DNA of 64,000 nucleotides from an uncultured Sulfitobacter sp. GTDB lineage: Bacteria; Pseudomonadota; Alphaproteobacteria; Rhodobacterales; Rhodobacteraceae. Below, one piece after another: positions 1-59,418 of this stretch. Each line of letters starts with the position of its first letter. Position 1 is the stretch's first letter. The notes beneath the pieces were generated by a model. That model made no database searches. It saw only the letters and a list, made by a program, of their open reading frames with translations, and was not told where the DNA came from. The DNA lies in assembly GCA_947501805.1 (NCBI GenBank), contig CANMXJ010000016.1, positions 1 through 64,000 of the forward strand, in the 5' to 3' direction. The position numbers and the translations under genes were made by a program.

Positions 1-43
1 GTTTCAGTCCCATAGTCAGTCTCCTTTGTTGCAGTAAATGCTA

Positions 44-1051
44 TCAAAGGAGCGGCATCAAACCGCGACAGGTCCAAACACCACCCCACTGAGCTGCAAA
101 TACAACGACAAACGCCACGATCGCCACCAGCCAAAATGGAAGGCGCAGGCCGTAGATGAGTTCGTTCCAAGTGCCCTGTTGTTCTTTAGATTGTGCCATC
201 GCCCGCCTCTCCCGCTTCCAGAAAGAAACGAGGTGCGCAATGAGCAGAAACGATGTGGGATAGAGGAAAAGGCACTCAATCGGCCAGCTGAGCGACCAAA
301 AGAATCCAACCTGCTTGGTTAAATCTGGTCGCGCCAGATAGGTTAGATCGTGGTTCCCGATGACAAATGACATCAAGCAAAGCAGGAAGAAGCCAGCCCA
401 GACGAATATGGCAATACTGAGACCGTCCACGCTTGTGAATAGTTTTTCAGACAGCCCGGCTAAGCTACTTCGTTTGTTTTGTGACCCATCTTTCTTTCTG
501 TCTGACGAAGAATCGTTGTCATTTTCGTCTGCCGGGGTTTTGCCGTCGCTTTCGCGACGCGCTTTGCGTATCGATGCAAGTCGCTTGTTCGCCGCTCGAA
601 GCTCCTTTCTCCATGCTGCAGTCGCATCCGGATCGCCCATACCGAACACGCGCGCTAAGCAAACTATGTTTTCTGAGCTGATACCCTTGTCATTGTCTTG
701 AAACCAATTTTGGACGGTCCGCACGTCCACTCCACGACCATTTGGGTCAACCGCTAAGATCGCCTCTGCTAGCAAGTTGGGCGTCCATTCACTGTTGGTA
801 TCTGCGGTTTTCACAAACGACAGACCTGCGCGGGCGGAAATTGCTTCCTGAAACAACTCCTTGAAATCAAGGTCTCCGCTCAGGGGTCTGGTCACGCAGC
901 TCTTGTCGATGTGCACCATCTTCGGGCCTTCGCTCTCTTTCTTCGCTAAATAGTTGTCGAACGATAGGCGAATTGATGGGTTTGTTTCTTTACATTTCAG
1001 AAGCTTGCGAAGCTTAATTTCGCCTTGGTCGTCTCTTTCGTGCGTTGGCAC
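44..1051 (-). CDS. Predicted membrane protein with N-terminal HTH-like cytosolic region and several C-terminal TM helices (resembles a Rhodobacteraceae family annotated as RcgA putative transporter; recollection only)
   Basis: Long ORF; N-terminal segment 'VRTVQNWFQDNDKGISSENIVCLARVFGMGDP' followed by a charged linker and hydrophobic stretches. Confidence 0.6.
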   Translation of the reverse strand: MPTHERDDQGEIKLRKLLKCKETNPSIRLSFDNYLAKKESEGPKMVHIDKSCVTRPLSGDLDFKELFQEAISARAGLSFVKTADTNSEWTPNLLAEAILAVDPNGRGVDVRTVQNWFQDNDKGISSENIVCLARVFGMGDPDATAAWRKELRAANKRLASIRKARRESDGKTPADENDNDSSSDRKKDGSQNKRSSLAGLSEKLFTSVDGLSIAIFVWAGFFLLCLMSFVIGNHDLTYLARPDLTKQVGFFWSLSWPIECLFLYPTSFLLIAHLVSFWKRERRAMAQSKEQQGTWNELIYGLRLPFWLVAIVAFVVVFAAQWGGVWTCRGLMPLL

Positions 1052-6673: not shown

Positions 6674-8484
6674 TCTATAAACCGGACGTCGCGCCCTATC
6701 GCTGGCTCATCATCGGCACTCTGATCTGTGCCTTGTGTACCGGTCTCGCGTATTGGTATTTCTTCCAACGTCTAGCCTATCGCGCACCGGATGGCGCGTC
6801 GATACCGATAAAGTGGGACTATGTGAAAGCCTGTCTCCATCCGTTCGATCAAGACTATTGCCGTCAGATCAAGGCGGCGATGTCGCCGGATTCTGAACAA
6901 CAGTTCTACCTTGGCACGACCACTTTTGCGGCCTTCGCCGTGATGGCCGCGGGCTGTTTCGGTTACTTGGTTTGGGAATGGGGGCTTCGCGTAAAGCCAC
7001 TGATCATCAAGGCGGGGTTTACCGTCGCAGGTGCAAAGGAATTGGCTCTCGCCTCGAACCATGAGATCAAACGCGACGCAAAAGGACTGCATTGGTTTGG
7101 TGATTTCTTCATCAGCCGGTTGCGCGAAGTGAACCACTTCTTGGTCTTTGGCGCCATCGGTGGCGGCAAGACACAAACGATCCTGCCGCTCCTTCGATCG
7201 GTCATGGAGCGCGGCGACAAGGTCATCGTGTTTGACTTCAAAGGTGATTACACCCGCATGGCGTTTTCCAAACCAAAGGGTGAAGCCGAACCACAAGATC
7301 CGCTCTTGCTCGCGCCGCATGATGATAGGTCTGTGATCTGGGACATCGCCAACGATCTCATCGTCGAAGAGGATGCGATCGAGGTGGCGAACCGCATCAT
7401 TCCGGAAACAAAAGATCGGTTCTTCTCGGACTCGTCCCGTACGGTATTGGCCCTTTGCATCATCACACTGATGAAGACCAAACCCCAGAAGTGGACATGG
7501 TGGGAATTGATGGAGACCACGCAATTGCCGCTCGAGCAGTTGCAAGCATTTGCCAAAAAGTACCATCGCGACGCAATGATCTATCTAAACGCGGACTACC
7601 GTCAGGTGTCCGCAACAATCTCCACGATGGCCGCAGGGCTGGGTGCGGTTCGCATGCTTGCCTATGGCTGGCGGTCGAGCGCGGGAAAACGGAAAACGTT
7701 TTCGCTGCGCAAGTGGTTACTCGACGAGGATACCAAGGATCGCACGCTCGTGCTGCAGCGATCGGGTCGGTTCCAGGATCAATCCGAAGGATGGATATCA
7801 GCCTTCCTGACGGTGATGTCCTCCAACGTTTCAGACGTGTCTTTCGGCGACAGTAATGACCGAAGGGTCTGGCTGTTCGTTGATGAGTTCGCGCAATTGC
7901 CCAAAGTGCATCGTTTTGAGGCGATGCTGGAGACCGGTCGTTCGAAAGGTCTCGCTGTTGTACTTGGTATACAAGGCGTCGAACAGCTGGTGGCAAAATA
8001 CTCGCAGCAGGTCGCTGACCAGATCGAGTCCTTGGTCGGCACGAAGGTGATCGCAAAGATCAATGTCGGGCAAACCGCCAGAAGACTTGAAGAGCAGTTC
8101 GGCAATACGATCATGATCACCCATAGGCGGGACACAGATGGCGGCGGTCGGCTCAAATGGATGCGAGAAGAAAAGCGTGAACCTGTCGTCCACCGCACAG
8201 ATTTCCAGACAGAGCTGGGACCGCTTCTTCATAAGAAAGGCGTGTACGTCTTGGTTAGCGGCATCGGCAAACACGTCTATCGTGTGCTGGTGCCCTACTC
8301 GAAATCCAAAGACATGCGTCCGGCTGAAGAGCCCGCAACATGGACGATGAAGTTGCGCGAAATTTTCGAGGACGAGGCGGAGGTCGCTCGGCAGAAGGAC
8401 ATTACCGCTCAGGAGGAGATGCGATTTGGCGAACGCGCGCTGGAGCATTCAATCGAACCAGACGACCGTGGAAAGGCCCGATGA
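6670..8484 (+). CDS. Type IV coupling protein (TraD/TrwB/VirD4 superfamily ATPase)
   Basis: N-terminal TM segments, Walker A 'FGAIGGGKTQT', Walker B 'VWLFVDEFAQLPK'; ATG overlaps the traD stop. Confidence 0.9.
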   Translation: MIYKPDVAPYRWLIIGTLICALCTGLAYWYFFQRLAYRAPDGASIPIKWDYVKACLHPFDQDYCRQIKAAMSPDSEQQFYLGTTTFAAFAVMAAGCFGYLVWEWGLRVKPLIIKAGFTVAGAKELALASNHEIKRDAKGLHWFGDFFISRLREVNHFLVFGAIGGGKTQTILPLLRSVMERGDKVIVFDFKGDYTRMAFSKPKGEAEPQDPLLLAPHDDRSVIWDIANDLIVEEDAIEVANRIIPETKDRFFSDSSRTVLALCIITLMKTKPQKWTWWELMETTQLPLEQLQAFAKKYHRDAMIYLNADYRQVSATISTMAAGLGAVRMLAYGWRSSAGKRKTFSLRKWLLDEDTKDRTLVLQRSGRFQDQSEGWISAFLTVMSSNVSDVSFGDSNDRRVWLFVDEFAQLPKVHRFEAMLETGRSKGLAVVLGIQGVEQLVAKYSQQVADQIESLVGTKVIAKINVGQTARRLEEQFGNTIMITHRRDTDGGGRLKWMREEKREPVVHRTDFQTELGPLLHKKGVYVLVSGIGKHVYRVLVPYSKSKDMRPAEEPATWTMKLREIFEDEAEVARQKDITAQEEMRFGERALEHSIEPDDRGKAR

Positions 8485-8563
8485 GCTGATCTTGGCGAAT
8501 GTCTTGTTGACCGCGACGGGACTGCATAACCCACCAGCCACACAAAACGACCGCATGCCGATC

Positions 8564-9007
8564 TTAAAACTTGAAGATCACCTTCTTATCAGATGTCGGT
8601 TTGATGACGTTACCGTCTGCATCCATCCGGAGAGCCACTTTAGGGTCGACCGAATAGAGCCCGTTGCGGTTCTGTCGCTTAAGCAATCCGGTGTCGGCAA
8701 AACGAGAACGCCAACGCTGTACCGTCACAACGGTCGTAGACAGGCGCTCAGCGCTGTCGTCCATGCGCCCGAGATAGCCGCTGTCCTGAATGTCCTGACA
8801 GATATCGGCAAGCACGCGGCAGGCGATGTTCTCTTTGGCTTTGTTGTAGTGGACTTTGACCTGTCGGAAGAGGTCAATATTCACGCCAAGGTCGCCAGGC
8901 TTTAACGCAGTCGCGTCAGGCGGCCCTTCGAAGAACCTGACTGGGGTTGCGCCAAATAATTCTTTTTCTTCAGTCAACATACACCCGTCTATTCCGCATG
9001 GTTCCAT
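8564..9007 (-). CDS. Winged-helix protein resembling plasmid replication/maintenance protein RepL
   Basis: 'LADICQDIQDSGYLGRMDDSAERLSTTVVTVQRWRSRFADTGLLKRQNRNGLYSVDP' reads as a wHTH. Confidence 0.5.
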   Translation of the reverse strand: MEPCGIDGCMLTEEKELFGATPVRFFEGPPDATALKPGDLGVNIDLFRQVKVHYNKAKENIACRVLADICQDIQDSGYLGRMDDSAERLSTTVVTVQRWRSRFADTGLLKRQNRNGLYSVDPKVALRMDADGNVIKPTSDKKVIFKF

Positions 9008-9133
9008 CTCTATCGTTTCTGACGCGCCACTTTTTCGAGGATGGCCGTTTTACAGTCATGTCGAACCGTAGTGGAAGGGAGGACCCGTGTCACCTCGATC
9101 CGAATACCGCATTGAGCTGAGAAGGAAAGATCA

Positions 9134-9170
9134 ATCGGCCCCGATGGTGGGAGGGTCCACCGGGGCCGAT
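9134..9170 (-). terminator. Strong hairpin downstream of the DUF736 gene
   Basis: ATCGGCCCCG ... CGGGGCCGAT with inner GGTGG/CCACC; weak T-tract on the minus side. Confidence 0.55.
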
Positions 9171-9177
9171 CTCTGGG

Positions 9178-9537
9178 TCAGGCGGCCATCTGGTTGTTGG
9201 CGGCCTGGGGTTCGCGGGCGGACCAGAGCATCAGGTGGGTGACACCGTCATCACCGATCTCGTCGAGCGCGATCACGTTGGCGTAGATCGCCATGGCGCC
9301 CAGTTCTGGGGCGGCCATTTTCACCGACAGGTAGTCGTTGCCGGTGGTGTCGGAGGTCTTCTTCCAGGCGGCACCGATCTCGTAGGTGCCATTGGCGAAG
9401 ACGCGGTAGTCTGGCTGGTCGCTGTGGGCCTTTGCGTTGGGGACGATCGTGATCTTGGAGCGAACGGCCATTGTGGCAAGTGTGCCGGTGAAGATGTCTT
9501 TTTCGTTCTTGGTGAGAGATGCGAGTTTGTTGCTCAT
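9178..9537 (-). CDS. DUF736 family protein
   Basis: 'DYRVFANGTYEIGAAWKKTS...GNDYLSVKMAAPEL' characteristic of DUF736. Confidence 0.9.
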   Translation of the reverse strand: MSNKLASLTKNEKDIFTGTLATMAVRSKITIVPNAKAHSDQPDYRVFANGTYEIGAAWKKTSDTTGNDYLSVKMAAPELGAMAIYANVIALDEIGDDGVTHLMLWSAREPQAANNQMAA

Positions 9538-33588: not shown

Positions 33589-33999
33589 GGTAGGGCCAAA
33601 ACCTGAAAAGCTGCCTTTCGCGGCGCGATCAACGAACTGGTAAGATGCGGGACAAACCGGACTTGTGCAGATGCAGCTATTGCTGACGCAGAAAACGTTC
33701 GCATTTGTAGCGTCGCTCATTTGGCAGTGCAGCACATTCCACCATATCGGCCATTCGAACGCACCGATTTGAGCAAATCTCAGACTAATTTTTCGCTTCG
33801 CTTGGTTCCAACAATCACGACCCGAACTTTTCTGCCGTTTACTCCACCGCAAGCAGTGACCGCTCTCAGCCCAAAGCCCTTGTTTGGTTTCTCTATTGGT
33901 CAGCGGACACAATACGAATTTGCACGCTGGATCGAAGTCGGCTTCGGCCTCTTGACCCACAAAACAACTGATCTGCTTGAAGTTGGAAATTGATGGGTT

Positions 34000-45960: not shown

Positions 45961-47103
45961 ATGTTTTCCTTTATCAGTCCCCAAGAGATCCACTTTGGCC
46001 GGGGTCAGAGCCAAAAAACAGCAGCATTGGCCGCAACCTTCGGTACCTCTGTTCTGTTGGTTCATGGCTCAAGTGTGGCTCGCGCGCAGTGGCTGATAGA
46101 TGCTTGTCGCTCGGCGGGTCTGACGACCGAAATGATCAGTTGTGCAAATGAGCCCAGCTTGCCCGATATTCAACGCGCGCTGCGCCAGTTGAATGGGGTC
46201 TCTCCGGATATTGTTATCGGGCTTGGCGGCGGCTCCGTCCTCGATTTTGCCAAAGCTCTGGCAGCGTTGATCCCCTGTAACGGCGATCCAATGACCTACC
46301 TCGAAGTGGTTGGGGACGGGTGCCCCTTAGATCACCCCCCCCTGCCGATGATCGCCTTGCCCACAACGGCTGGTACCGGTGCGGAAGTCACTAAAAATGC
46401 AGTCATCTTGGTGCCTGATCAGGGCATAAAAGTAAGTCTGCGCGACCCGCGGATGGTGCCGAACATTGCCATCGTTGACGCATCACTCATGCAGGGCGCA
46501 CCGAAACAGGTGGCCCTTGCGGCCGGGCTCGACGCGGTTACCCAAGTGATTGAGCCGTATCTGTCGATCAAAGCCAATCCGATGACCGACGCCTTGTGCC
46601 ATGCAGCCATTTCAAAGGGTCTAAGCGCGCTGAGAGATTTGGTGGAAAACGACACGCCTGAAGCGTGGGATAGCCTGGCTTGGGTCAGCACATGTGGCGG
46701 CTTGGCCTTAGCGAACGCGGGCCTTGGGGCCGTGCATGGTTTCGCAGGCGTGATCGGCGGAGAAACCAATGCTCCCCATGGCGCAATTTGCGGCGCACTG
46801 CTTCCTGCTGTCCTTGAATCCCACCTACGCAAAGCGGAGGAACATACGGAAGTATCTGCTCGCTTGCATTGGGTCTTGCATCAAGTCGACACCTATTTTG
46901 CACAGGGTGAAAAAGGGGTGGGTATTGCTGCGCTGCGGAGCTGGTCCCGGAAAATGGGTCTTCCGGGCTTGGAAGGGCTGGGGTTATCCTTGGCAGACTC
47001 TTCTAAAGTTGCCGAAGCCGCGTCTAAAGCATCATCTATGACCGGAAATCCTTTCGTTCTTTCACAACGTGAACTTCTGGAGATCCTACATTCTGCGAAG
47101 TGA
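45961..47103 (+). CDS. Iron-containing alcohol dehydrogenase
   Basis: 'IGLGGGSVLDFAKA', 'ALPTTAGTGAEVTKNAVI', 'NAPHGAICGALLP'. Confidence 0.92.
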   Translation: MFSFISPQEIHFGRGQSQKTAALAATFGTSVLLVHGSSVARAQWLIDACRSAGLTTEMISCANEPSLPDIQRALRQLNGVSPDIVIGLGGGSVLDFAKALAALIPCNGDPMTYLEVVGDGCPLDHPPLPMIALPTTAGTGAEVTKNAVILVPDQGIKVSLRDPRMVPNIAIVDASLMQGAPKQVALAAGLDAVTQVIEPYLSIKANPMTDALCHAAISKGLSALRDLVENDTPEAWDSLAWVSTCGGLALANAGLGAVHGFAGVIGGETNAPHGAICGALLPAVLESHLRKAEEHTEVSARLHWVLHQVDTYFAQGEKGVGIAALRSWSRKMGLPGLEGLGLSLADSSKVAEAASKASSMTGNPFVLSQRELLEILHSAK

Positions 47104-47958
47104 GGGATCCAAACGTTGTATTGAGTTTCCTATGCCGCTGCTGATTGGATCTTCAAAGACCCAGCGCTCCACGTTTCTTCCTATCGAAATCAGAACAGGC
47201 GTTAATATTGCCAATTCTGTAGATGGCCCGGCCTGCGGTTCGTCGCGAGACAGAGTTGCTTTCTGGGGCGGTCGATCAATTGCTTAAGTTTAATTAAGTC
47301 TAGATGAAACAATTGCCTGATTTGGATTTCCGCACTTAAACGAATCCATTATTGCCAGTCAAATTTCTCTCAGCCAACAGAGGCCTCAAGACACCACACA
47401 AGTCACGAAAGGTGGCTTTGCAAAATGCAGAGCGGCACTCAGTTCTTGCCACGAACCCCGTTCTTGGGTTGCAAACGCGAAATTGGTGCAGGCGCAGCGA
47501 ACGACCACAACGTCCGCAACCTGTGAGTTCGCCGGAATGGCATCGCTGCGTTTTGCATTAAAGGCCGGTTCTCCGGCCGCAAGGCAGCGTGGATGATTAT
47601 GCTCCTGCCGCATTTTTTGCGCTGCGAGCGCGCGCAGCGAGGAATTCAAACTTACAGTATGGGCTCTTTGCGGCCATTAAATCAATCGCAGCATTCGTGC
47701 GATACCAACTCGCTTCCACCTGCAAGGACGGCCCAAAGCCGCCATCCACCCAGTAGAAAATCGCTGCGCTGCGGCATATCTGAAGTAGCCATTGGTTGCT
47801 GATAAAAAAACCTTCGATTTGTCACGCATCACTCCCCGCTTTACCCTCCGTGCCTTATCAGCCAATCTAGCCATGGAAAGTGCCCGTCTTTCAGATCTCT
47901 GGCACAGCAACCGTTCGAGGTGACCCGGTAGTTGGACTTGAACCAAGGAGTTTTTTCT

Positions 47959-48819
47959 TTGTCAATCAGACCCATGAACAAGAGAAGCCCCAAAGACTTG
48001 CCTTCGAACAGAGAACTACCTTCCAAGCGCCATGGTAGGTTCTTAGAATTTGTGGATGAGACGCCTTTTGTACTCTTAGGCATTATGGTTCTGGGCGCAT
48101 ACGTTGGTCTTGTAGCGCTGGTTAGCTTTGTTGAGTTTGTCGCGCTCATCGGTTTCGAGCTAAATTTGGTGAAAGGGGCAAATGGCTGGTGGGATATCCT
48201 GTATTTCAATTTTATGACTATTTTAACTGTTGGTTACGGAGACCTCTCACCGCTGGGATTTGGCAAAGTCCTGTCTTCTCTTTTGGCACTTGCCGGCGTT
48301 GGTCTTTTTGCAGGCGGGGTATCTCTTCTAACCATAAAGGCATTGAGGCCATCGGCGCATACAATAGTTTTTTCGAAGTACGCTTACTACTGCAAAAGAG
48401 AGCAAAGATTTTTGATAATTTTCTTAAATACAAGCGTTGCCCGGTTGGAAAGCTGCACGATAAGCTCGTACTTCAAGCTTGGACGAGACTGGTCGGTGAA
48501 GCCAGCAATTGCGTCGCCATTCCTTACAAAGGCAGTGCAAACCTTCTTCATAGATGAGCACCCGATGGCTGACATTTCTGAAAGACTTACGGATGGCGAT
48601 TGCCTTCGAGTATGCGTAGCTGGAAATTTACTTGGCTCTGAAGTGGCGGAAACTGCCCAGTACAAGCCAGACGAGATCATAATAATTGAGAACCGTGATC
48701 TATTGGCATCCCATGAACCCTTCTGGCACCCAGATTTCAAGGACGAAGAGTTTGCTAAGATGTTTCACTATCGACCAGCCGGTGCCAAGTCTCTTCAAGA
48801 GCAGTTTGGATTGCGTTGA
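47959..48819 (+). CDS. KirBac-like two-TM potassium channel protein
   Basis: Selectivity filter 'TVGYGD', two TM segments, C-terminal region resembling inward-rectifier cytoplasmic domain; TTG start 8 nt after AAGGAG (alternative ATG at 47974). Confidence 0.75.
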   Translation: MSIRPMNKRSPKDLPSNRELPSKRHGRFLEFVDETPFVLLGIMVLGAYVGLVALVSFVEFVALIGFELNLVKGANGWWDILYFNFMTILTVGYGDLSPLGFGKVLSSLLALAGVGLFAGGVSLLTIKALRPSAHTIVFSKYAYYCKREQRFLIIFLNTSVARLESCTISSYFKLGRDWSVKPAIASPFLTKAVQTFFIDEHPMADISERLTDGDCLRVCVAGNLLGSEVAETAQYKPDEIIIIENRDLLASHEPFWHPDFKDEEFAKMFHYRPAGAKSLQEQFGLR

Positions 48820-48923
48820 TTGCGCCATCTCACCATACAGAAAATTCGTTGTGATGGTGTCAAACAGATCTGACTGGAGTGGCAACGGCCCGAAAGGTCC
48901 GCTTCCGTCCTAAGTATGGATAA

Positions 48924-50384
48924 TTAACCCAATGCAGCCTTTGCTGCCGGAGCACAAATGCTTTGCAGAATGATGCTGTCTGGACTTTGCCGTTCGATCA
49001 TATCCACTGAAGATTCTTGGAGTCTTGCAGACACACCAAGTCCGGTCAGAACCTTGCTTTGCTTTCGGATTAACATAAGAAAATTCGCCCGAGCACCGGC
49101 ATAAGGGCGTGCCAGAAAGTCACTTCGTATCTTCAAGAACATCTCTTTTGGATTATCTGCCACGGCAATAAGGTACACCAGTTGTTTGTCAGATAAGGTA
49201 GAGATAATTTCTGGATTATTCTCGGCGGTCTCGAAAATGAAGTTTTTTTCGAAAGTTCCAGCGGCGGCCCCTAACCTAAATACATAACCCAAGGTAGCAC
49301 GGAAGATGGTGTCCAAACGAATTGGATTACCCCTTCCATGCCATGCAAGAGCTGCTCGAAGCTTGCTCCTAAACTTCTTCAGGTTTCGATCACCAATGGC
49401 TGAAAGCACGTCGAGACCTCGGAAACGTGCTAATTCATCTCGTGTGTAAATCTTGGTTTTATGAGCATTTAGATTGAGGCCTTCTGGGAGGAGAAGCCTT
49501 GAAGCTTTATGGATGGCATCCTCTAGAATTTTTTTGTTTGGCCCAAAGATCATCATGTCGTCGGCCCAACGGACATAGAGCAAGCCATGATTTTGGCAAT
49601 ACGCATCAAATTCATCGTCAAAATTTTGCAAGTAATAATGCGATAAGAAGCGAGAGCCATCCGTAATAATTTCTTGCGGAATGCCTTTGGATGAGCGGCT
49701 GTAACCTTTTGTGCGTCTATCCCAAAGCCCAAGGAAAACTTCTAACAACTCAATAACATCTTTCGTTCCACGGGGCATATCCTTCCGTAGCCTTTCAATC
49801 AGGCGCGGGATTTCAATGGTATCATAAAAGTTTGCAACATCTGTCGTCGCTACAAAAGCGCCACTTGAAGCAGAGTCAGTCAACTCACGAATGAGTTGAG
49901 TGAATCCCAGAAACTCGCCAAACCACATGTCATTTGAAAAAGTTCCGGATGTGTATTCGTCTTGAAAGTCAGCGGCTTCCTCATTTTCAATCGGCATTTC
50001 CGAAGGGATGGATGCGACGCTGATGGGTATCGAGCGAAAGCCACCAAAAATACGGGGCTTCTTCTTCAATACCCTCTCACCGATATGGCCACAAAGGTGA
50101 TAGTAGACGGCCATGTCCTCTTTCGAAAGGATTGGTACAAAACGCGTCACTCCATTGCCTTTCTCACCGCCCAAATAACCATGGACAACTTCAGGGACGT
50201 AGCTTCGTCTCGCTAGACGTGCATTGTATTCCTTTACAAAATGACTGGCCTTTCCAAGATCAGATCTTTCTACTATCGGCACCTGACCATCCAATAGTTG
50301 TCGCCAGACGCTTTGAGTAAGACTCGTCTCCAATCGAAATTTTTTCACCCACTGCCCCAAAAAATCAAAAAATAGCTGCTGCAC
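48924..50384 (-). CDS. Reverse transcriptase (non-intron, Abi/UG-like, unclassified)
   Basis: 'FVATTDVANFYDTIEI', 'KGIPQEIITDGSRFLSHYYL', catalytic 'YVRWADDMMIFG', 'GLNLNAHKTKI'. Confidence 0.85.
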   Translation of the reverse strand: MQQLFFDFLGQWVKKFRLETSLTQSVWRQLLDGQVPIVERSDLGKASHFVKEYNARLARRSYVPEVVHGYLGGEKGNGVTRFVPILSKEDMAVYYHLCGHIGERVLKKKPRIFGGFRSIPISVASIPSEMPIENEEAADFQDEYTSGTFSNDMWFGEFLGFTQLIRELTDSASSGAFVATTDVANFYDTIEIPRLIERLRKDMPRGTKDVIELLEVFLGLWDRRTKGYSRSSKGIPQEIITDGSRFLSHYYLQNFDDEFDAYCQNHGLLYVRWADDMMIFGPNKKILEDAIHKASRLLLPEGLNLNAHKTKIYTRDELARFRGLDVLSAIGDRNLKKFRSKLRAALAWHGRGNPIRLDTIFRATLGYVFRLGAAAGTFEKNFIFETAENNPEIISTLSDKQLVYLIAVADNPKEMFLKIRSDFLARPYAGARANFLMLIRKQSKVLTGLGVSARLQESSVDMIERQSPDSIILQSICAPAAKAALG

Positions 50385-50586
50385 AAGACAGACATGAAAT
50401 TTTTAAGAAATGAAAGTTCTCACTCTCGCCAATAAATATCTTCTTCTGAGCCAGAGACGTCTACCCATGTCATACCGCCGTTGCCGAAGCGCAGCGAATG
50501 TCCGCTATCCGCCCACTCCTTGCAGAAACGGTGGCTCCTGGGCGAAGTGCCGCGGCCTTGGCAGCGGCCACCATAGTATGTTACAA

Positions 50587-50619
50587 AACCTCGGACCAAA
50601 TACAAATCTGTCTGAGGTT
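50587..50619. promoter_or_regulatory. Inverted repeat immediately upstream of abiEi, candidate autoregulatory operator
   Basis: AACCTCGGAC ... GTCTGAGGTT (9/10 arms), ending 8 bp before the abiEi ATG. Confidence 0.55.
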
Positions 50620-50627
50620 ATCTATCA

Positions 50628-51245
50628 ATGCCACACGACCTGACACAGAGGCAGCGCCTCCTTGAATACCTGAAATCCTATGCGCCGGCACGCGCACGGG
50701 ATCTTGAGGATGTTGGCGTCTCAGCGGCAGCAATCTCGCGCTCAGTGCAGTCCGGTGAAATCCTTCGTCTAGGCCGAGGGCTTTACGGCCTGCCCGACAG
50801 CGTTCCCAATACGCATGAAACCCTTATCGAAGTGGCCAAGCGGGCACCAAAGGCCGTCATCTGCCTGACGTCGGCTCTGGCATTTCATGGCCTGACCGAT
50901 CAACTGCCGCGGCGCGTCTGGATCGCCATCGGTGCCAAGGACTGGGAGCCCAAGATCACATATCCCAAGATCCGAGCAGTCCGGTTCCGTGAACCGTATT
51001 TCTCCGACGGCGTCGAGGAGCACCAGCTGGGTGGAACCACGATTAAGATGTACACAATTCCGAAGACGCTCGCCGACGCGTTCCGGAACCAACGCCTCGT
51101 TGATCGGTCGGTCGCCATCGAGGCTCTCAAGGCCGCGATCGAACAGCGTAAGGCGACGCCTTCAGCCATTGCCGAGGCTGCGCGGACCTACGGTGCCTGG
51201 AACCAAATGCGCCCCTACCTCGAAGCCGTGACGTCGAATGGCTGA
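50628..51245 (+). CDS. abiEi: AbiEi family antitoxin (type IV TA)
   Basis: 'GEILRLGRGLYGLPDS...AVICLTSALAFHGLTDQLPRRVWIAI...' AbiEi pattern. Confidence 0.9.
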   Translation: MPHDLTQRQRLLEYLKSYAPARARDLEDVGVSAAAISRSVQSGEILRLGRGLYGLPDSVPNTHETLIEVAKRAPKAVICLTSALAFHGLTDQLPRRVWIAIGAKDWEPKITYPKIRAVRFREPYFSDGVEEHQLGGTTIKMYTIPKTLADAFRNQRLVDRSVAIEALKAAIEQRKATPSAIAEAARTYGAWNQMRPYLEAVTSNG

Positions 51246-52104
51246 CCAGCCCAAGAACATCGCCGCATCGGTGCGCCAGAGACTGCTGAACCTCGCGCGC
51301 GCGGAGGGGCAGGCCTTCGACGTGGTGTTGGTCGCATTCGGACTGGAGCGACTCATCTACCGCCTGTCGGTGTCGGCACACCGCGATCGCTTCGTGTTGA
51401 AGGGCGGCATGCTCGTCACCCTTTGGACGAAGGATAGGGGCCGGTTTACCCGAGACATCGACTTCCTGTCGTTCGGGGCCGAAGACGAGGCGACCCTCAA
51501 GAAGACCATCACGGAGATCCTTGCGATCAACGTAGACGATGGCCTCGTCTTCGACGGTGCCAGTCTTACGGCAGCCCCGATCAGGGAAGATCAGGTCTAC
51601 GGCGGCATGCGCCTGAAAACTACTGCCTTTCTCGAAAAGACGAAGATTCCGATCACAATCGATGTCGGGTTCGGAGATGCGCTCGGAAACCCGGACTACA
51701 CACTCGACTATGACTCCCTGCTCGACTTTCCCTCGGCATCGGTGCGCGCCTACTCCCCCGAGACGGTCATCGCGGAGAAATTTCAGGCGGTTGTTGCGCT
51801 CGGCGTCATCAATGGTCGAATGAAGGATTACTACGACCTATGGGCGTTGCCAAAAGCCGTGGATCTCGATCTGGACGATCTGCAGGCCAGCATCGAAAAG
51901 ACTTTTGAGCGGCGTCAGACGGCGGTGCCAAAGGAGCGACCGACAGGGCTGTCCCAAGAATTCGCCACCGATGCAACAAAGTCCGCACAATGGCGCGCCT
52001 ATTCCGAGGCGACCGAGATCGAGGATCTGAGCCTCGGACAGGTCGTCGATGATATCTGGACCACGCTGGAGCCCATCTGCACCCGTGTCATTGGTGTGAC
52101 TTAA
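51238..52104 (+). CDS. abiEii: AbiEii nucleotidyltransferase toxin
   Basis: 'FVLKGGMLVTLWTKDRGRFTRDIDFLSFG', 'YSPETVIAEKFQAVVALG'; overlaps abiEi. Confidence 0.92.
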   Translation: MADQPKNIAASVRQRLLNLARAEGQAFDVVLVAFGLERLIYRLSVSAHRDRFVLKGGMLVTLWTKDRGRFTRDIDFLSFGAEDEATLKKTITEILAINVDDGLVFDGASLTAAPIREDQVYGGMRLKTTAFLEKTKIPITIDVGFGDALGNPDYTLDYDSLLDFPSASVRAYSPETVIAEKFQAVVALGVINGRMKDYYDLWALPKAVDLDLDDLQASIEKTFERRQTAVPKERPTGLSQEFATDATKSAQWRAYSEATEIEDLSLGQVVDDIWTTLEPICTRVIGVT

Positions 52105-52239: not shown

Positions 52240-52833
52240 TCACGTCTCTGTCAATCCCGCATCCGCCAATTGCTCACGATCCGGAAGATCTTGAAGCGTC
52301 TCCAGATCAAAGGTCACAAGGAACTTGTCGGTCGTCACGTAGGTATAGGGCGCACCGCGCCTAGGGGATCGAGGACCCGTCCCGATCAAACCCTGCGCGT
52401 GCAATCGCCCGATCAAGTCGCGACTGATCTCCTTGCCGAAGATGTCCTTCAACCCATCCCGTGTGATCGGTTGGTGATAGGCAATGGCGGCCAGCACCGC
52501 GACATCGAATTCGCGCAGATCGAGGTCCTGATCGCCGATACCCGCGGCCGTCCGGATCGCGGGCGCATAGGCCGGTCGCGTCCGCATCATCCAACCGCCG
52601 GCCACCTGCGCGACTTCGAAGGACCGTCCTTCCAGATCAGCAATCAGGTCCTCGACCAACAAGTCGACCGAGGTCCCCTGCCCCACAACGCGGGCCAGAT
52701 CTGCGTGCGGCACCGGCGAGGCGGAGGCGAAGAGCACGGCTTCGATCCGGCGCATCCATTCGCGCCAGCGCAAATCTTGCGGCAGGTCCTCGAGCCCGCG
52801 GTCAAGCTCCGTTTCAGTATGATCCTTCGCCAT
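52240..52833 (-). CDS. scpB: SMC-Scp complex subunit ScpB homologue
   Basis: 'RIEAVLFASASPVPHADLARVVG...EFDVAVLAAIAYHQPITRDGLKDIFG'. Confidence 0.88.
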   Translation of the reverse strand: MAKDHTETELDRGLEDLPQDLRWREWMRRIEAVLFASASPVPHADLARVVGQGTSVDLLVEDLIADLEGRSFEVAQVAGGWMMRTRPAYAPAIRTAAGIGDQDLDLREFDVAVLAAIAYHQPITRDGLKDIFGKEISRDLIGRLHAQGLIGTGPRSPRRGAPYTYVTTDKFLVTFDLETLQDLPDREQLADAGLTET

Positions 52834-52835
52834 CG

Positions 52836-53726
52836 TCAGACCCCGTAGAGCCGGAAAGTGTCGCGCCCGGTCAGCTCCCGCACGACACCGAGTTCTACCA
52901 ACCTGTCGCAGAACCGGCGCGCGGCCCGACCGGAGCGAAGCGAGGTCAGCGACGTTGGCGCCACAGCATCCCGGCTCAGAAACAACGCCACCGCCCCGTC
53001 GGCGCCCCTCGCCCGGAGCTTGGGGGCAACCTCTTTCAGGCGAGTGGCTCGGCGAGACAGGTTTCCTGCCTCACGCACTACTTCGGCCGCGGCCGCCGAG
53101 ATCGCCCGATGGCAGGCCAACCGTAGGTCCGCATCGGTCTTCCGCAGATCAGCCCGCCTAAGACCAAGCGCGAAGAGCGGCAGGACATGGCTCCACCCGA
53201 GCGCTTGTGCCAATGCCGCGTCTGCTAGGATCAACCCCACGGTGAAATCACGGGGCCGATCCGCGAGAACCGCCTGCAGCACGGCCGCAGCCCGAGGGAT
53301 CGGCGTCCCCTGCCCTTCATCCAACCAGCAGGCAATTTGCTCTGCGCCGATCCGGGGCAATGCGCGGCACAGCACCTTCACTGAGATCGGCCGCTCCACC
53401 GCACGTCGCCAAGAGAGATAGGTCTCGCCCGCGGGACCCGGTTTATCGCCGGGCTGCAGAAACGCCACCGCATCGCGTAACTCTGCAGCCCGTTCTGGCC
53501 GCCCCTGATGCGTCACGCAGGCCTCTGCCGCGCGCAACGCCAACCGCGCCCGCAACAAGCTCTGGGGCACGTCATCCCGGCTCACCACAAGATGCAGGTG
53601 GCTGAGCGCCGCCCCTGACAAAAACGCCACATCTTCGGGGGTTTCAGCCCGCATGGAGGTGACCCAACCCGGGAGTTTGGGTACGTTGATTGGGTCGTCC
53701 AAGATGGTATTCGACTGATAGGTCAT
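52836..53726 (-). CDS. DUF1403 family protein
   Basis: 'AFLSGAALSHLHLVVSRDDVPQSLLRARLALRAAEACVTHQGRPERAAELRDAVAFLQPGD'. Confidence 0.88.
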   Translation of the reverse strand: MTYQSNTILDDPINVPKLPGWVTSMRAETPEDVAFLSGAALSHLHLVVSRDDVPQSLLRARLALRAAEACVTHQGRPERAAELRDAVAFLQPGDKPGPAGETYLSWRRAVERPISVKVLCRALPRIGAEQIACWLDEGQGTPIPRAAAVLQAVLADRPRDFTVGLILADAALAQALGWSHVLPLFALGLRRADLRKTDADLRLACHRAISAAAAEVVREAGNLSRRATRLKEVAPKLRARGADGAVALFLSRDAVAPTSLTSLRSGRAARRFCDRLVELGVVRELTGRDTFRLYGV

Positions 53727-53802
53727 GCCACAACACTATCCCGCTACGGCGCTTTCCGCCACAATATATTGCTATAACCGCCCCACCCTGCGGGTCTCTG
53801 CT

Positions 53803-53831
53803 ATGTCCAATAAGTTTGCATTATCGGACAT
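53803..53831. other. Recombination-core-like inverted repeat (11-7-11) upstream of an integrase gene
   Basis: ATGTCCAATAA-gtttgca-TTATCGGACAT (10/11 arms). Confidence 0.55.
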
Positions 53832-53882
53832 TGCGAGATATGCTGAAAACCAGTTTAATTACATCACTGGATTCACGGGAAA

Positions 53883-54998
53883 ATGGCATCAGCGGACGAG
53901 AAATCGACATCATCAAACTCTGGTGCGTTCCGTATCGCTCAGGACGACGAGATAGATCAAGAGAAAAGCGATGGCATCGCCCTGCCCGCACATGTCGCAG
54001 GTTCAGGCGCGCTTGATCGCCTTGTTGATACCGCGCGGGATTACGCCCGCCAAGCGACGTCCGAGAACACCAACAAGGCCTATAAGAAGGACTGGGCCCA
54101 TTTCTCCAGCTGGTGCCGCAGACGTGGTGCCGACCCCCTGCCCCCGTCTCCGGAACTGGTCGGCCTCTACATTGCCAACTGCGCGGCTCCGGATACCAAG
54201 ACCCCATCGCAGTCGGCGTCCCGACCCCTGTCCGTAAGTACGATCGAGCGCCGTCTCTCTGGCCTTGCATGGCAGTACCAGCAGCGCGGGTTTACGCTGG
54301 ATCGCAAGAATCGCCACATCGCCACGGTGCTGGCCGGGATCAAACGCAAACATGCCCGTCCGCCGGTCCAGAAAGAAGCCATCCTGCGCGATGACATTCT
54401 CGCCATGATCGCCACCCTGCCCTACGACCTGCGAGGGCTGCGCGACCGATCTATCCTGCTACTTGGATTTGCGGGCGGACTCAGGCGATCCGAGATCGTC
54501 AGCCTCGATCACGGCAAGGACGACACACCAGATAGTGGCGGCTGGATCAAAATCATGGACGAAGGCGCCCTGATCACACTCAACGCAAAGACCGGATGGC
54601 GCGAAGTGGAAATCGGCCGGGGATCGAGCGACCAGACATGCCCGGTGCATGCGCTGGAACAATGGCTGCATTTCGCCAAGATCGATTTTGGGCCTGTGTT
54701 CGTCCGCACCTCCCGCGATGGCAAGAAGGCACTGGAGGCACGGCTCAGTGACAAACACGTCGCCCGTTTGATCAAGCAAACAGTGCTGGATGCTGGCATC
54801 CGGTCGGACCTGCCTGAGAAAGACCGGATGGCGCTTTTCTCGGGCCACTCGCTGCGCGCCGGCCTCGCAAGTTCTGCGGAAGTCGACGAACGCTACGTCC
54901 AGAAACATCTCGGCCACGCGTCCGCTGAGATGACCCGCCGCTACCAACGTCGTCGCGACCGATTCCGCATAAATCTAACAAAAGCTGCAGGGCTATAG
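53883..54998 (+). CDS. Tyrosine recombinase/integrase
   Basis: 'ENTNKAYKKDWAHFSSWC', 'GFAGGLRRSEIVSL', 'FSGHSLRAGLASSAEVDERYVQKHLGHASAEMTRRYQRRRDRF'. Confidence 0.93.
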   Translation: MASADEKSTSSNSGAFRIAQDDEIDQEKSDGIALPAHVAGSGALDRLVDTARDYARQATSENTNKAYKKDWAHFSSWCRRRGADPLPPSPELVGLYIANCAAPDTKTPSQSASRPLSVSTIERRLSGLAWQYQQRGFTLDRKNRHIATVLAGIKRKHARPPVQKEAILRDDILAMIATLPYDLRGLRDRSILLLGFAGGLRRSEIVSLDHGKDDTPDSGGWIKIMDEGALITLNAKTGWREVEIGRGSSDQTCPVHALEQWLHFAKIDFGPVFVRTSRDGKKALEARLSDKHVARLIKQTVLDAGIRSDLPEKDRMALFSGHSLRAGLASSAEVDERYVQKHLGHASAEMTRRYQRRRDRFRINLTKAAGL

Positions 54999-55007
54999 GC
55001 CCCTGCC

Positions 55008-55361
55008 CTACTCAGACGAGCCGGATAGCAAGCGCGTGAGCATGTGTCGGATGTGATCCTGAGATCCGAAGAACACCGCCAGAATTTGGACGATCTTCCG
55101 ATCTTCCTGTGCAATGAACCAGAACACGGCCTTGTCGTGCCCAACGAATCGCAGGCCAGGGAGAACGTCGGGGCGGAGCGTTCCTTGAAACGGGACTTTT
55201 GCAAGGTCACTGGCAGAGGACTGGATACTCCCGATACGCCGCTCCGCGCGTTCAAATGCTGTGTCAAAATCGTCCCCGAATTCCTGGTACGACTGCAAAA
55301 GATGGTCAAAAATCAGTTCGAAGTCACGCTCAGCCGCCGCCGCAAACTCAACTGTCCACAC
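55008..55361 (-). CDS. parE: ParE/RelE-type toxin
   Basis: 'WTVEFAAAAERDFELIFDHLLQSY...GHDKAVFWFIAQEDRKIVQILAVFF'. Confidence 0.85.
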   Translation of the reverse strand: MWTVEFAAAAERDFELIFDHLLQSYQEFGDDFDTAFERAERRIGSIQSSASDLAKVPFQGTLRPDVLPGLRFVGHDKAVFWFIAQEDRKIVQILAVFFGSQDHIRHMLTRLLSGSSE

Positions 55362-55623
55362 GGGCAGTTCGCCGTTTTCTATCGATCATCGCAGTAATGC
55401 GCCCATCCATATCCGCTCCCGACACGAAATTACCTTTTGATCGGGCAAGCAGCACCGCTTTCAAGGCAGCTGTTTCGGCCTCTTCGGCTTCGGTTCTCTG
55501 GCGCAGAAGATCAAGACTGTTCTGGATCACAGCACTGACACTTGAATACCGGCCCTGTTCCACCAGCTGACGTGCGAAGGCAGCCTGTTGATCAGACAGT
55601 GATATTGATGACTTTACGCCCAT
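55348..55623 (-). CDS. parD: ParD-type antitoxin
   Basis: 'KSSISLSDQQAAFARQLVEQGRYSSVSAVIQNSLDLLRQR'; overlaps parE. Confidence 0.88.
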   Translation of the reverse strand: MGVKSSISLSDQQAAFARQLVEQGRYSSVSAVIQNSLDLLRQRTEAEEAETAALKAVLLARSKGNFVSGADMDGRITAMIDRKRRTARVDS

Positions 55624-55687
55624 GATGTCGCTCCTTCAAGATAATAGGTAGCACTGAGTAGCACCGCTTTCAAGATGAGATCATTCA

Positions 55688-56971
55688 TCACGCCGCCATT
55701 TCACTCAAGCGACCGTAGAAGCTACGCTCCAGATGCAGCTCCCCTGCCCCAGCCTTTTCGACCATTCCACGCAGATATCCGCCTGGTGAAGCCACTTCGC
55801 CGGAACTGTGCTTTTCGAACACGAGCACAAGCGCTGCTGTCGCCACTTGCTTGCCCAATCGATCCTGGGCAACGTGCCAGGCGTGCTCTGAAATGCCGAT
55901 CATTGGTCGGAGCTGGCCTGCGACGCGGTAAAGATCGCCCCAATCCTTCAGATATCCTCCCATATTGTGCGCCCAGGACGCGAATTCGGGGCAAGCCTGC
56001 ATGACTGTCTGCAGATCAAGCGCTGTTCCCCGCTTTTTACGGGTTTCAGCCACCCAGTCTTCCAGCTCCTGATCAACACGCTCTTCCGGTGGCGCATTTG
56101 GCACCACGGCCGTCGCGTTCTCATTCTCTGAGGACTTACTAATTACAGGATTAAGTTGTTTTGTAATTAGTATATGAGGTTCGGAAATGACCTCCTTGGG
56201 GTTCATATCTTGAGTCTTTCTAGATGTCTGCTCATTCGTTGCAGAGCTGTTATCCACAACTTCATCCATCGCAGCTGCCTTGAGGAACGATGCTTCGACG
56301 CGCTCTTGAAGCTTCCTGAACCAGTCCAGAAGGCATCCAAGTGTCTCGGAGGCCTCGTGGCGACGCGGGAGCCTGCCCAGAAGGTCTTGAAACATGTCAC
56401 TGAAGACGCCCCAAGGGCCCTTCAGTGCGCCGCTGAGCGCCGCATCGATCCGGGCGCGGATCATCCGGCGTGCGATTGTGATCTGACGCTTCAGGCGCTG
56501 GCACAACGCGCGTTCAGCCTGAAGCTCGGCGTGGAGATGCTCGAATTCTGCGACACGGGCGGACATGGGCGAAAGATCAAAGCCGTAGGCCTCGATGATC
56601 ACGCCATCCGCGTCCCTGCGTCCCCACCGCTTGCCATTAGGGCTATCCTGGAAGGCAATGATGCCCGCCTCTGCGAGGCGGCGTGCGTGACGCTTGAGCG
56701 CAGAGAGCGAAAACCCGGTCTGCTCCATCAGGTAGGCGTTGGAGGCCCACACGATCGGTCGCCTGCCCTCTTCCCAGTCCTGAGTCTGAGTAAAGGCCCC
56801 GAGCGTGTCGAGGAGCATCATATCGCCCGCCTTAAGCCCTATGTGCGCACCCACACGCTTTACTGCCACAAATGCCTTTGATTTGGGTACACTTACGCGT
56901 TCACCGGCTTGGGCAAGTTGCTCTGCAACCCCAAGACCCGGTGTCGGCTTGCGCCAACCTGTATGTTTCAT
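55688..56971 (-). CDS. repC: Plasmid replication initiator RepC
   Basis: 'WRKPTPGLGVAEQLA...FSLSALKRHARRLAEAGIIAFQDSPNGKRWGRRD'; order repA-repB-repC. Confidence 0.95.
   Translation of the reverse strand: MKHTGWRKPTPGLGVAEQLAQAGERVSVPKSKAFVAVKRVGAHIGLKAGDMMLLDTLGAFTQTQDWEEGRRPIVWASNAYLMEQTGFSLSALKRHARRLAEAGIIAFQDSPNGKRWGRRDADGVIIEAYGFDLSPMSARVAEFEHLHAELQAERALCQRLKRQITIARRMIRARIDAALSGALKGPWGVFSDMFQDLLGRLPRRHEASETLGCLLDWFRKLQERVEASFLKAAAMDEVVDNSSATNEQTSRKTQDMNPKEVISEPHILITKQLNPVISKSSENENATAVVPNAPPEERVDQELEDWVAETRKKRGTALDLQTVMQACPEFASWAHNMGGYLKDWGDLYRVAGQLRPMIGISEHAWHVAQDRLGKQVATAALVLVFEKHSSGEVASPGGYLRGMVEKAGAGELHLERSFYGRLSEMAA
56137..56172. other. oriV: Candidate oriV: AT-rich inverted repeat inside repC
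   Basis: TACTAATTACA-14 nt-TGTAATTAGTA perfect arms in an AT-rich stretch of repC. Confidence 0.55.
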
Positions 56972-57073
56972 GCCTGTATTCCACCTCCATTTTATGTGGA
57001 GGCAAAAGAAATCCGTTCACCAAATCGGTGTTGTTTTGTTGACAGCGATTCGCGGGAGAGGTATCTATCAGGT

Positions 57074-57127
57074 GTTCAGATTGATTAGATCAGCTCTCAG
57101 GCCGCTTGGTTTGGGGGCTTTTCTTTT
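57074..57127 (+). ncRNA. Counter-transcribed antisense RNA (ctRNA/inc-alpha) of the repABC operon
   Basis: Promoter TTGACA-17 bp-TATCTA (57039-57067); terminator AGCTCTC/GGGGGCT followed by TTTTCTTTT; antisense to the repB-repC leader. Confidence 0.85.
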
Positions 57128-57135
57128 GCCTTAAT

Positions 57136-58128
57136 TCACTTGTTCTTCTCCTGTTTTGACGAGAGAAATGCTTCGTAGAGGCCATCAAGGTTCTCGGTGA
57201 GATAATCACCAAAATCCGAGGCGTCTGTTGATGTCAGTGAGACGCTGAACGCTTTGCCAGACTTCCCCACAACACCTTTGATTCGGCCGCCATTGGCGGT
57301 CCAAGTACGCTTTGCTGGGGTCGCACGTTTCGTCTTCTTACGCACCGCCCTGCCCTTTTCAGAAAGCTTGCTTAGAAGCAGCTCAAACCGTGCGTCACTT
57401 TGCAACTCCGCAAAACTTTGCTCAGCCACCACTTGCTGTGCTAACTTTAAGTTTGCTGGTGCGGTCATCAGCTTCTTGAAGCCTTCCCAGCGATCACGTC
57501 CAATTTGTTTTGCTGGCCCGACGGCATCGATGACATCTCGTGGAATCTGCTTTGCGACAGACAACATCCGCGACAGAAGTGTTCCGTCAACGGTGAGTGC
57601 AGACATGATCACATCTTTTGGCTGCCCTATGTCTGCAAGATTTTTGGCAAAGACCGCTTTTTCAATGAACGACAGATCGGCTCGGGCCGTGTTTTCATGA
57701 CCCTGAGCAAGAATATGAGCAACATCGCCCATAGGCTTGACGACTGCTCGTACCATGCGTTCAAGCTCAGCAGCAGCGCGCACACGCCGGTGGCCAAAGA
57801 CCACCATGAAGCGTCCAGTAGTATTGGGATGGGGGCGCAACAACACAGGAGTGTCTTGCTGCCCTGTTTCTATCGAAGCCTTGAGCTCCTGAAAGGCTTC
57901 GTCATCCAGTCCAAGCCTGTCGCTGACAAAGGAACTGTCGATTAAGTCTGGCGATATTTCAACAATCGTTTCGCCATCCATCATGCGGCGTGCATCTTCG
58001 GCAAGGCTATCGATGGAAACTTTCATAGACTTAGATGCCCCGCGCATTGCGTAGTTCGTGCGCCCGCCATCAGATGCCTTATCGGCGGCTGGCTCCATCA
58101 CGCTTTTCAAGAGGTCTTTACGTGCCAT
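57136..58128 (-). CDS. repB: Plasmid partitioning protein RepB (ParB family)
   Basis: 'TGQQDTPVLLRPHPNTTGRFMVVFGHRRVRAAAELE' ParB/RepB. Confidence 0.95.
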   Translation of the reverse strand: MARKDLLKSVMEPAADKASDGGRTNYAMRGASKSMKVSIDSLAEDARRMMDGETIVEISPDLIDSSFVSDRLGLDDEAFQELKASIETGQQDTPVLLRPHPNTTGRFMVVFGHRRVRAAAELERMVRAVVKPMGDVAHILAQGHENTARADLSFIEKAVFAKNLADIGQPKDVIMSALTVDGTLLSRMLSVAKQIPRDVIDAVGPAKQIGRDRWEGFKKLMTAPANLKLAQQVVAEQSFAELQSDARFELLLSKLSEKGRAVRKKTKRATPAKRTWTANGGRIKGVVGKSGKAFSVSLTSTDASDFGDYLTENLDGLYEAFLSSKQEKNK

Positions 58129-58182
58129 GATGTGCCTCCAAAAGAGTTGCAATGCAGAGTTGTTTGGTCTCAATTTCTAAAT

Positions 58183-58198
58183 CTGCACGGCTGTCAAA
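58183..58198. repeat. 16-bp repeat CTGCACGGCTGTCAAA, copy 1 (parS-like)
   Basis: Identical to 59678-59693; lies in the repA-repB gap. Confidence 0.6.
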
Positions 58199-58209
58199 AA
58201 ATACCATTT

Positions 58210-59418
58210 TCAGCGCCCCCAAGCTTCATGAATAAGGTCTGTAATCTCATCGTTGACGGCATTAAGTGAGTCCATTGCACGGTCATACGTGGCGCGTACA
58301 AATTGGGCGCGCTCAACCTCATAAAGTGTTTGCTTAGTAATCCCAGCATCAGAAATCGCGGTAGACTTAACCATATGAGATTGCAGCATCTGGCCAGGAA
58401 ACATGGCTTGCATGAAGCCCACCATTTGCTTTTGCGGGCTATCTGTTGGTTCAAAGCGAGTCACAAGATAGCGAAACCACTTCAGGTTCATTTGAGCCCC
58501 CGCATCACGGATCGTCTTCATGATACCGCCCAACATGAGTAAAAACTGGCTCATCGACATCACGTCCAACATCTGTGGATGGACAGTAATAAGAACTGAA
58601 CTCGAAGCAGTGAGTGCCGTTAGGGTCAAATACCCCAGCTGCGGTGGGCAATCGATAACGACGATGTCGTACCGGTCATCGACCTCCTTCAACGCCTCAG
58701 AGATGCGTGTGAAGAACGCGCGGCCAGCCTGCGGGTCCTTGCTCGTTAAGGCGACCGGTGTATCGTACTCGTACTCTTGAAGATCCAGACTTGCAGGAAT
58801 GATATCGAGGTTTGGAATGTTCGTCTTACGGATTACCTCAGTTATAGATTTCCGTTCTTCATCGTAACGCAATGTCTCGTATAGGGACGGCACCTCATCC
58901 AACTCTGGCTGAATTCCATGAAGCGCTGTCAGCGATGCTTGTGGGTCCAAGTCGATCGCGAGAACTCTATGACCGCGCAGCGCAAGGTGCTGGGCGAGGT
59001 GGGCTGCGGTTGTCGTCTTTCCCGAGCCGCCCTTGAAGTTCACAACCGATATGACGTGGAGGTCTTCACCTTCTTGGCGATGCGGCACATATCGCTTCTT
59101 CCCAGAACGACCGTGCTTATCAAGGTAGGCCCTTAGTTCCAGCATCTGCTCCCCAGAATAACTACGCCGCCCTGAAGATGAAGTTGTTGGCTCAGGGCCT
59201 TTGCCCTCAAGATGCAATTTCTTGATATTGGATTGGGTTACCCCGAGAAAGTACGCCACTTCGGCCAAGCTGAACTGGCGTAGGCTCTTCTGAGCGTCCG
59301 GAGGGTACTGCTCCATGCGCAACATATTGAGTCTGTCAGAAATCAATTCCCCCTGTTGAAGGATGATCTCGTCGAAGGGTATGGTAGCCCCGTTGTTCTC
59401 AAATTCCCTCATAGTCAC
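58210..59418 (-). CDS. repA: Plasmid partitioning protein RepA (ParA family)
   Basis: 'ISVVNFKGGSGKTTTAAHLAQHLALRGHRVLAIDLDPQASLTALHG'. Confidence 0.96.
   Translation of the reverse strand: MTMREFENNGATIPFDEIILQQGELISDRLNMLRMEQYPPDAQKSLRQFSLAEVAYFLGVTQSNIKKLHLEGKGPEPTTSSSGRRSYSGEQMLELRAYLDKHGRSGKKRYVPHRQEGEDLHVISVVNFKGGSGKTTTAAHLAQHLALRGHRVLAIDLDPQASLTALHGIQPELDEVPSLYETLRYDEERKSITEVIRKTNIPNLDIIPASLDLQEYEYDTPVALTSKDPQAGRAFFTRISEALKEVDDRYDIVVIDCPPQLGYLTLTALTASSSVLITVHPQMLDVMSMSQFLLMLGGIMKTIRDAGAQMNLKWFRYLVTRFEPTDSPQKQMVGFMQAMFPGQMLQSHMVKSTAISDAGITKQTLYEVERAQFVRATYDRAMDSLNAVNDEITDLIHEAWGR

Follow-up and report, generated by a model that had tools for sequence, protein, structure and literature searches.

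The reverse transcriptase and channel genes

The window (the whole 64,000-nucleotide stretch analyzed here, from a contig of an uncultured Sulfitobacter sp.) contains a reverse transcriptase (RT) gene and an ion channel gene that run towards each other. The RT is encoded on the minus strand (48924..50384) and the channel on the plus strand (47974..48819), with 104 bp between their stop codons (48820..48923), a gap in which neither an Rfam match nor a terminator-like site was found. An AbiEi/AbiEii pair (50628..52104, plus strand, ORFs overlapping by 8 bp), recognized by PADLOC at 257.9 and 329.3 bits and also by Pfam, starts 243 bp beyond the 5′ end of the RT gene. These measurements agree with an earlier note on this DNA, which had described the convergent genes across about 104 bp, with AbiE about 240 bp away. 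The same note had drawn the AbiE vicinity into a candidate module. We reject this on G+C composition: the RT and channel genes are low in G+C (45.6% and 46.5%) and the flanking genes higher (56–66%, with AbiE at 59–60%), so that AbiE forms a separate compositional unit outside the module. The contig (84,849 bases) carries RepA-, RepB- and RepC-type genes of a repABC replicon, a ParD antitoxin, an integrase and a TrbI-like gene, and the module is therefore probably plasmid-borne. On this plasmid-like contig, a ScpB and DUF1403 gene pair (window 52240-59418) is found near the integrase, the ParD gene and repABC.

The RT (486 aa, GTG start) was called unclassified in the earlier note, which is incorrect: PADLOC assigns it to group UG13b over nearly its full length (RT_UG13b, 403.6 bits, residues 15-453; the runner-up is UG21 with 95.6). 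The ORF is intact, matches RVT_1 in Pfam (46.1 bits; cut-off 29.6) and contains the motifs already noticed, TDVANFYDT, IPQEIITDGSRFLSHYYL and YVRWADDMMIFG. Motif A, TDVANFYDT (49818..49844, minus strand), includes the catalytic Asp182 and is invariant or nearly so in UG13b alignments; motif C, YVRWADDMMIFG (49542..49577, minus strand), includes the catalytic Asp275 and Asp276 and is invariant in them. All three aspartates are conserved in each of the eight aligned UG13b RTs, showing that the catalytic residues of the window RT are intact. The tryptophan that precedes ADD (in 'YVRWADD'), which had been pointed out as unusual, is indeed present, but it is no peculiarity of this enzyme, as most UG13b RTs carry WADD (two relatives, L001 and L058, have FSDD and FADD, respectively). 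UG13b itself is a group that has been catalogued but is, as far as we found, uncharacterised; our literature search returned no relevant paper naming UG13.

By sequence alone, placement of the RT among the larger classes of UG RTs is ambiguous, because its weak matches span class 1 and class 2 UG families. The NCBIfam models for maturases, retrons, Drt2, Drt3a and AbiA all score far below their cut-offs. An AlphaFold2 model, built from a four-sequence alignment, predicts the core well, is of low confidence in the N-terminal third (mean pLDDT 65.6) and ends in an all-helical domain (residues 324-485; 48930..49415, minus strand; pLDDT mostly 74-96). Foldseek searches of the PDB with this model return DRT4, Abi-P2, AbiK, UG15, AbiA and DRT6 among the top matches (best E 7e-7, with TM-scores of only 0.2-0.4). 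Like the window RT as modelled, these proteins continue from the RT domain into an all-helical C-terminus, which in the window RT is predicted to resemble the helical-repeat domain of Abi-type RTs; in the structural alignments, however, they share only 11-18% identity with it. AbiK-type systems are not known to require a channel. Among UG RTs, class 1 enzymes that carry a helical-repeat domain synthesize DNA with no nucleic acid serving as template (PMC13174585; PMC11077055). Together with the best fold matches being of Abi type, this favours, but does not prove, assignment of the modelled RT to class 1 (Abi-like, template-free).

The channel gene encodes a two-TM potassium-channel-like protein of 281 aa. 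Its ORF is open from a TTG at 47932, with the ATG at 47974 as the likelier start. As the earlier note had seen, the protein is a two-TM channel (Pfam Ion_trans_2, 44.6 bits) with the K+ selectivity filter TVGYGD in its translation (48226..48243, plus strand), and its hydropathy profile has two strong TM segments (about residues 29-67 and 94-124). The pore aligns with those of NaK, MthK, Shaker and KirBac3.1; in PDB sequence searches, NaK-type and related potassium channel entries score best (E 2.5e-7), and KirBac3.1 is matched at 2.6e-4. The description 'Kir-like' holds only for the two-TM pore, the filter and the junction after TM2 (rPsAh-IvFSkyA), which resemble those of KirBac and inward-rectifier channels, although the pore sequence is no closer to Kir than to NaK, MthK or Shaker. 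The cytoplasmic C-terminal region (about 162 aa; 48331..48816, plus strand) matches no Pfam family up to E=10 (IRK_C included) and no PDB sequence. With HMMER, a KirBac profile built from five sequences scores this region no better than shuffled sequence, and with hhalign the region would rank 4th among 100 shuffles. Foldseek places Kir6.2 first, with a non-significant E of 0.099 and from a poor single-sequence model. A divergent Kir-type cytoplasmic domain is thus a fair hunch, not a result.

UG13b relatives and their convergent partners

After merging duplicates (such as G1151 with the Litoreibacter locus L004), eight distinct full-length UG13b RTs were retained, every traced one in Rhodobacterales. 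Besides the window RT, these are found on an Alloyangia plasmid (L001), a Tritonibacter plasmid (L002), Paracoccus pMOS7 (L003), in Litoreibacter (L004), in genome G296 (L009), on a viral or prophage contig (L012) and in genome G1173 (L058). The seven relatives are 41-55% identical to the window RT. UG13b is rare: full-length RTs occur in 2/397 sampled genomes of the family, 1/386 of the class and 4/336 of the order (plus one fragment), with the window's own genome included in each count and with a third RT from the family sample (G360) left out because it is UG13a. Other sources contributed three plasmid relatives above 40% identity, one relative on a genome contig and one on a viral contig. 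The nearest RT is a fragment (L059, genome G1182, 1-896, minus strand; 67% identity over 264 columns) that is cut near a contig end; neither the channel nor the 3′ half of this RT was found in that genome.

In six of the eight UG13b loci, the 3′ end of the RT gene faces a SLATT_5 gene on the opposite strand, coding for a pore-like membrane protein. SLATT_5 (PF18160) is recognized by Pfam in L001, L002, L003, L009 and L012, while the slot of L058 holds a protein 62% identical to the SLATT of L001. A seventh locus, L004, has no SLATT or other visible partner in this slot, which indicates that pairing is not strictly required. The eighth is the window, the only locus in which the slot is taken by a channel; in its own genome, no SLATT_5 scores above the cut-off. 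In the relatives, RT and SLATT genes are separated by 9-233 bp or overlap by 20 bp, and the 104-bp gap of the window exceeds the gaps in loci with an intact SLATT. Two of the six partners (L003 3983-4330 and L009 1909-2493, both minus strand) are shortened, ending after the first hydrophobic hairpin and without the C-terminal hydrophobic segment, which may mean that the intact effector is toxic or may stem from sequencing errors. Homology between SLATT and the channel was considered and dropped, as they show no meaningful similarity. PADLOC lists the L001 partner as 'RTasSLATT' under DRT, meaning that a link between UG RTs and SLATT is already known. According to myRT, SLATT_5 adjoins 82% of UG17 RTs (PMC8934634), and in DRT10, defence needs SLATT, for which control by cDNA has been proposed (PMC12632851).

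The neighbour conservation on which the earlier note had made its idea depend therefore turns out in two ways: a membrane protein is regularly present at the RT 3′ end, but the RT–channel pair is a single case, in one of eight loci. Searches with the channel through about 700 sampled genomes and through plasmids, phages and viral contigs turned up neither a second RT–channel locus nor a full-length relative of the channel, and no such locus was found on searching the genome that holds the nearest RT. Compared with the UG13b + RTasSLATT locus of Alloyangia pacifica (NZ_CP154653.1), the window shares the RT group, the catalytic motifs, a convergent membrane partner and the character of a low-G+C two-gene unit. 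It differs in the partner itself, which is a K+-channel-like two-TM protein with TVGYGD and a cytoplasmic domain of about 160 aa instead of SLATT_5.

That the gene pair is the unit is also indicated by the DNA of L001 and L058, which aligns at 68.5% identity between the RT start and a point close to the SLATT start but not outside these limits. A low-G+C patch is likewise formed by the RT (plus SLATT where present) in most relatives. Their neighbours include a type I restriction enzyme (L058), AIPR (L002), BrnT/BrnA (L003) and phage head genes (L012), which fits mobile defence cargo. In the RT tree, the window RT and the L059 fragment are placed beside the SLATT-bearing L001 and L058 (86/97). 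Based on this placement, the simplest history for what is a single case would be a SLATT-bearing ancestor in which SLATT was later swapped for the channel.

Two further observations concern these genomes. Genome G360 encodes a UG13a RT (L050 5818-7632, plus strand; 669 bits in PADLOC) that faces a convergent pair on the minus strand, consisting of a small protein without assignment (7845-8387) and another that combines two hydrophobic segments with a long soluble tail and matches nothing in Pfam (8384-9316); the convergent membrane-partner theme may thus extend to UG13a. Secondly, a degenerate intergenic repeat (TGCCGAAGCGCAGCGAATGTCCGC-like) flanks several UG13b loci, being present at 47756-47776 and 50482-50505 of the window, at L001 5715-5780, L002 8516-8581 and L009 2826-2865. 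As it also occurs elsewhere in the window (33609-33649) and in related genomes, it is probably a general repeat of these genomes. The inverted repeat formed by 47756-47776 and 50482-50502 was considered as a mark of mobility and rejected, since it looks like the same degenerate element.

A candidate RT–effector module and its alternatives

The reading we prefer, to which we give an even chance, is a two-gene defence-type module of a UG13b RT in which the SLATT_5 partner has been replaced by a two-TM channel and in which DNA made by the RT controls this membrane effector. We infer all steps beyond the gene anatomy. The RT would oligomerise as Abi-type RTs do and make DNA that needs no external template and is probably linked to the enzyme itself. 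This DNA, or the DNA-bearing RT, would then control the membrane partner, either by holding it closed or by opening it. Interference of a phage with the DNA or the RT would release the channel, resulting in loss of K+ and membrane potential, and the infected cell would stop before phage release. Judging by their positions, SLATT and the channel would be exchangeable effectors of one RT type. A more specific version, in which single-stranded DNA made by the RT directly gates a K+-channel-like effector and SLATT and K+ channels are exchangeable effectors of one RT type, is one that we put forward as speculative and, on balance, doubtful.

This mechanism would parallel two described systems. DRT10 (a UG17 RT with SLATT and an ncRNA; PMC12632851) also combines a UG RT with a membrane partner, whose control by RT-made DNA its authors propose. 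The window differs in that its RT is UG13b, its genes are convergent, SLATT is absent and no ncRNA was detected by Rfam or in the flanks. In Hailong, as far as described in PMC13275509, poly-dA on HalB blocks the HalA ion channel. The likeness would lie in the proposed logic, a DNA polymer from one protein gating the membrane channel of another, although the DNA maker in the window is an RT and not a nucleotidyltransferase. The earlier idea of the RT as a synthesis arm and the channel as a membrane effector fits the UG13b family pattern of a defence-associated RT that, in the relatives, regularly has an effector-type membrane protein at its 3′ end. The SLATT partners of the relatives support the effector idea and reveal the window channel as a variant, yet this particular RT–channel pair is a single case. 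As to the candidate new defence module, the RT does belong to a defence-associated (UG/Abi, 'DRT') group; this RT group had already been catalogued, and the RT system is not wholly new.

The alternative that survives best is coincidental cargo, where a UG13b RT has lost its SLATT or acts alone and an independent potassium channel gene has landed beside it, on a plasmid that gathers accessory genes. We regard this as possible but rather unlikely. It would account for the RT–channel pair having been found once in the genomes and collections searched, and it agrees with the partnerless UG13b RT of L004 and with a contig rich in cargo (integrase, ParD, AbiE, repABC). Against it, the channel lies exactly where SLATT_5 lies and in the same orientation, resembles it in being a small membrane protein that has a cytoplasmic part, and has its atypical G+C in common with the RT. 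Moreover, the initial channel search raised only two candidate places in the whole genome, which makes a chance arrival of a channel in this slot unlikely, although this observation was made after the fact.

In a second alternative, which we judge improbable, the RT is templated by a cis-encoded ncRNA in the style of class 2 (DRT2, DRT9, DRT10), with the channel as a controlled effector or a bystander. Precedent exists in UG17/DRT10 and in some DRT9 loci, where SLATT is present and ncRNA templates are used (PMC12632851, PMC12483538), and Drt3a and Drt2 are among the weak sequence matches of the window RT. An associated ncRNA had indeed been suggested for 48820-48923 or 50385-50627, but a scan of 47000-51000 returned no Rfam match. 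Pairwise comparison of the flanks of UG13b loci revealed no common sequence other than the general intergenic repeat, with the closely related L002 and L009 as the one exception; the identity between L001 and L058 ends at about the gene starts, and in L004 the upstream gene and the start of the RT are only 13 bp apart. We therefore rejected the idea that the module includes an ncRNA in its gaps or flanks, and the predicted RT fold, being nearest to template-free Abi-type RTs, also argues against this alternative.

Finally, a housekeeping or mobile-element RT without a defence role (group II intron maturase, retron or DGR), to which the generic RVT_1 domain and weak maturase and retron matches could point, is highly improbable and already largely refuted by the low scores of these matches (maturase TIGR04416 54.2 bits with a cut-off of 300, in line with the earlier note, which had noticed no group II intron maturase features; retron St85 44.6 with a cut-off of 235), the nearly full-length UG13b match and the Rfam result.

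Implications for UG reverse transcriptases

A DRT3 pair is encoded in the genome of the window (G000:C24; L051 4844-6931 and 6921-8387, both minus strand; Drt3b 616 bits, Drt3a 384 bits), which brings the number of different defence-type RT loci to at least two. A further weak RT match lies at G000:C3:57815-58111 (L008, L052).

What is novel here is the channel partner in place of SLATT, seen once; the UG13b group and the link between UG RTs and SLATT were already known. For most DRT systems, the route from RT-made DNA to cell death or phage arrest is open, and control of SLATT by cDNA has so far only been proposed (PMC12632851). If SLATT has been naturally replaced by a channel with a recognisable K+ filter, this would offer a readout for the proposal, in the form of K+ current or membrane potential, and would suggest that UG RTs can pass a nucleic acid signal on to membrane effectors that are interchangeable. 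The presence of a channel in the usual SLATT slot suggests that such RTs can be connected to more than one kind of membrane 'kill switch'.
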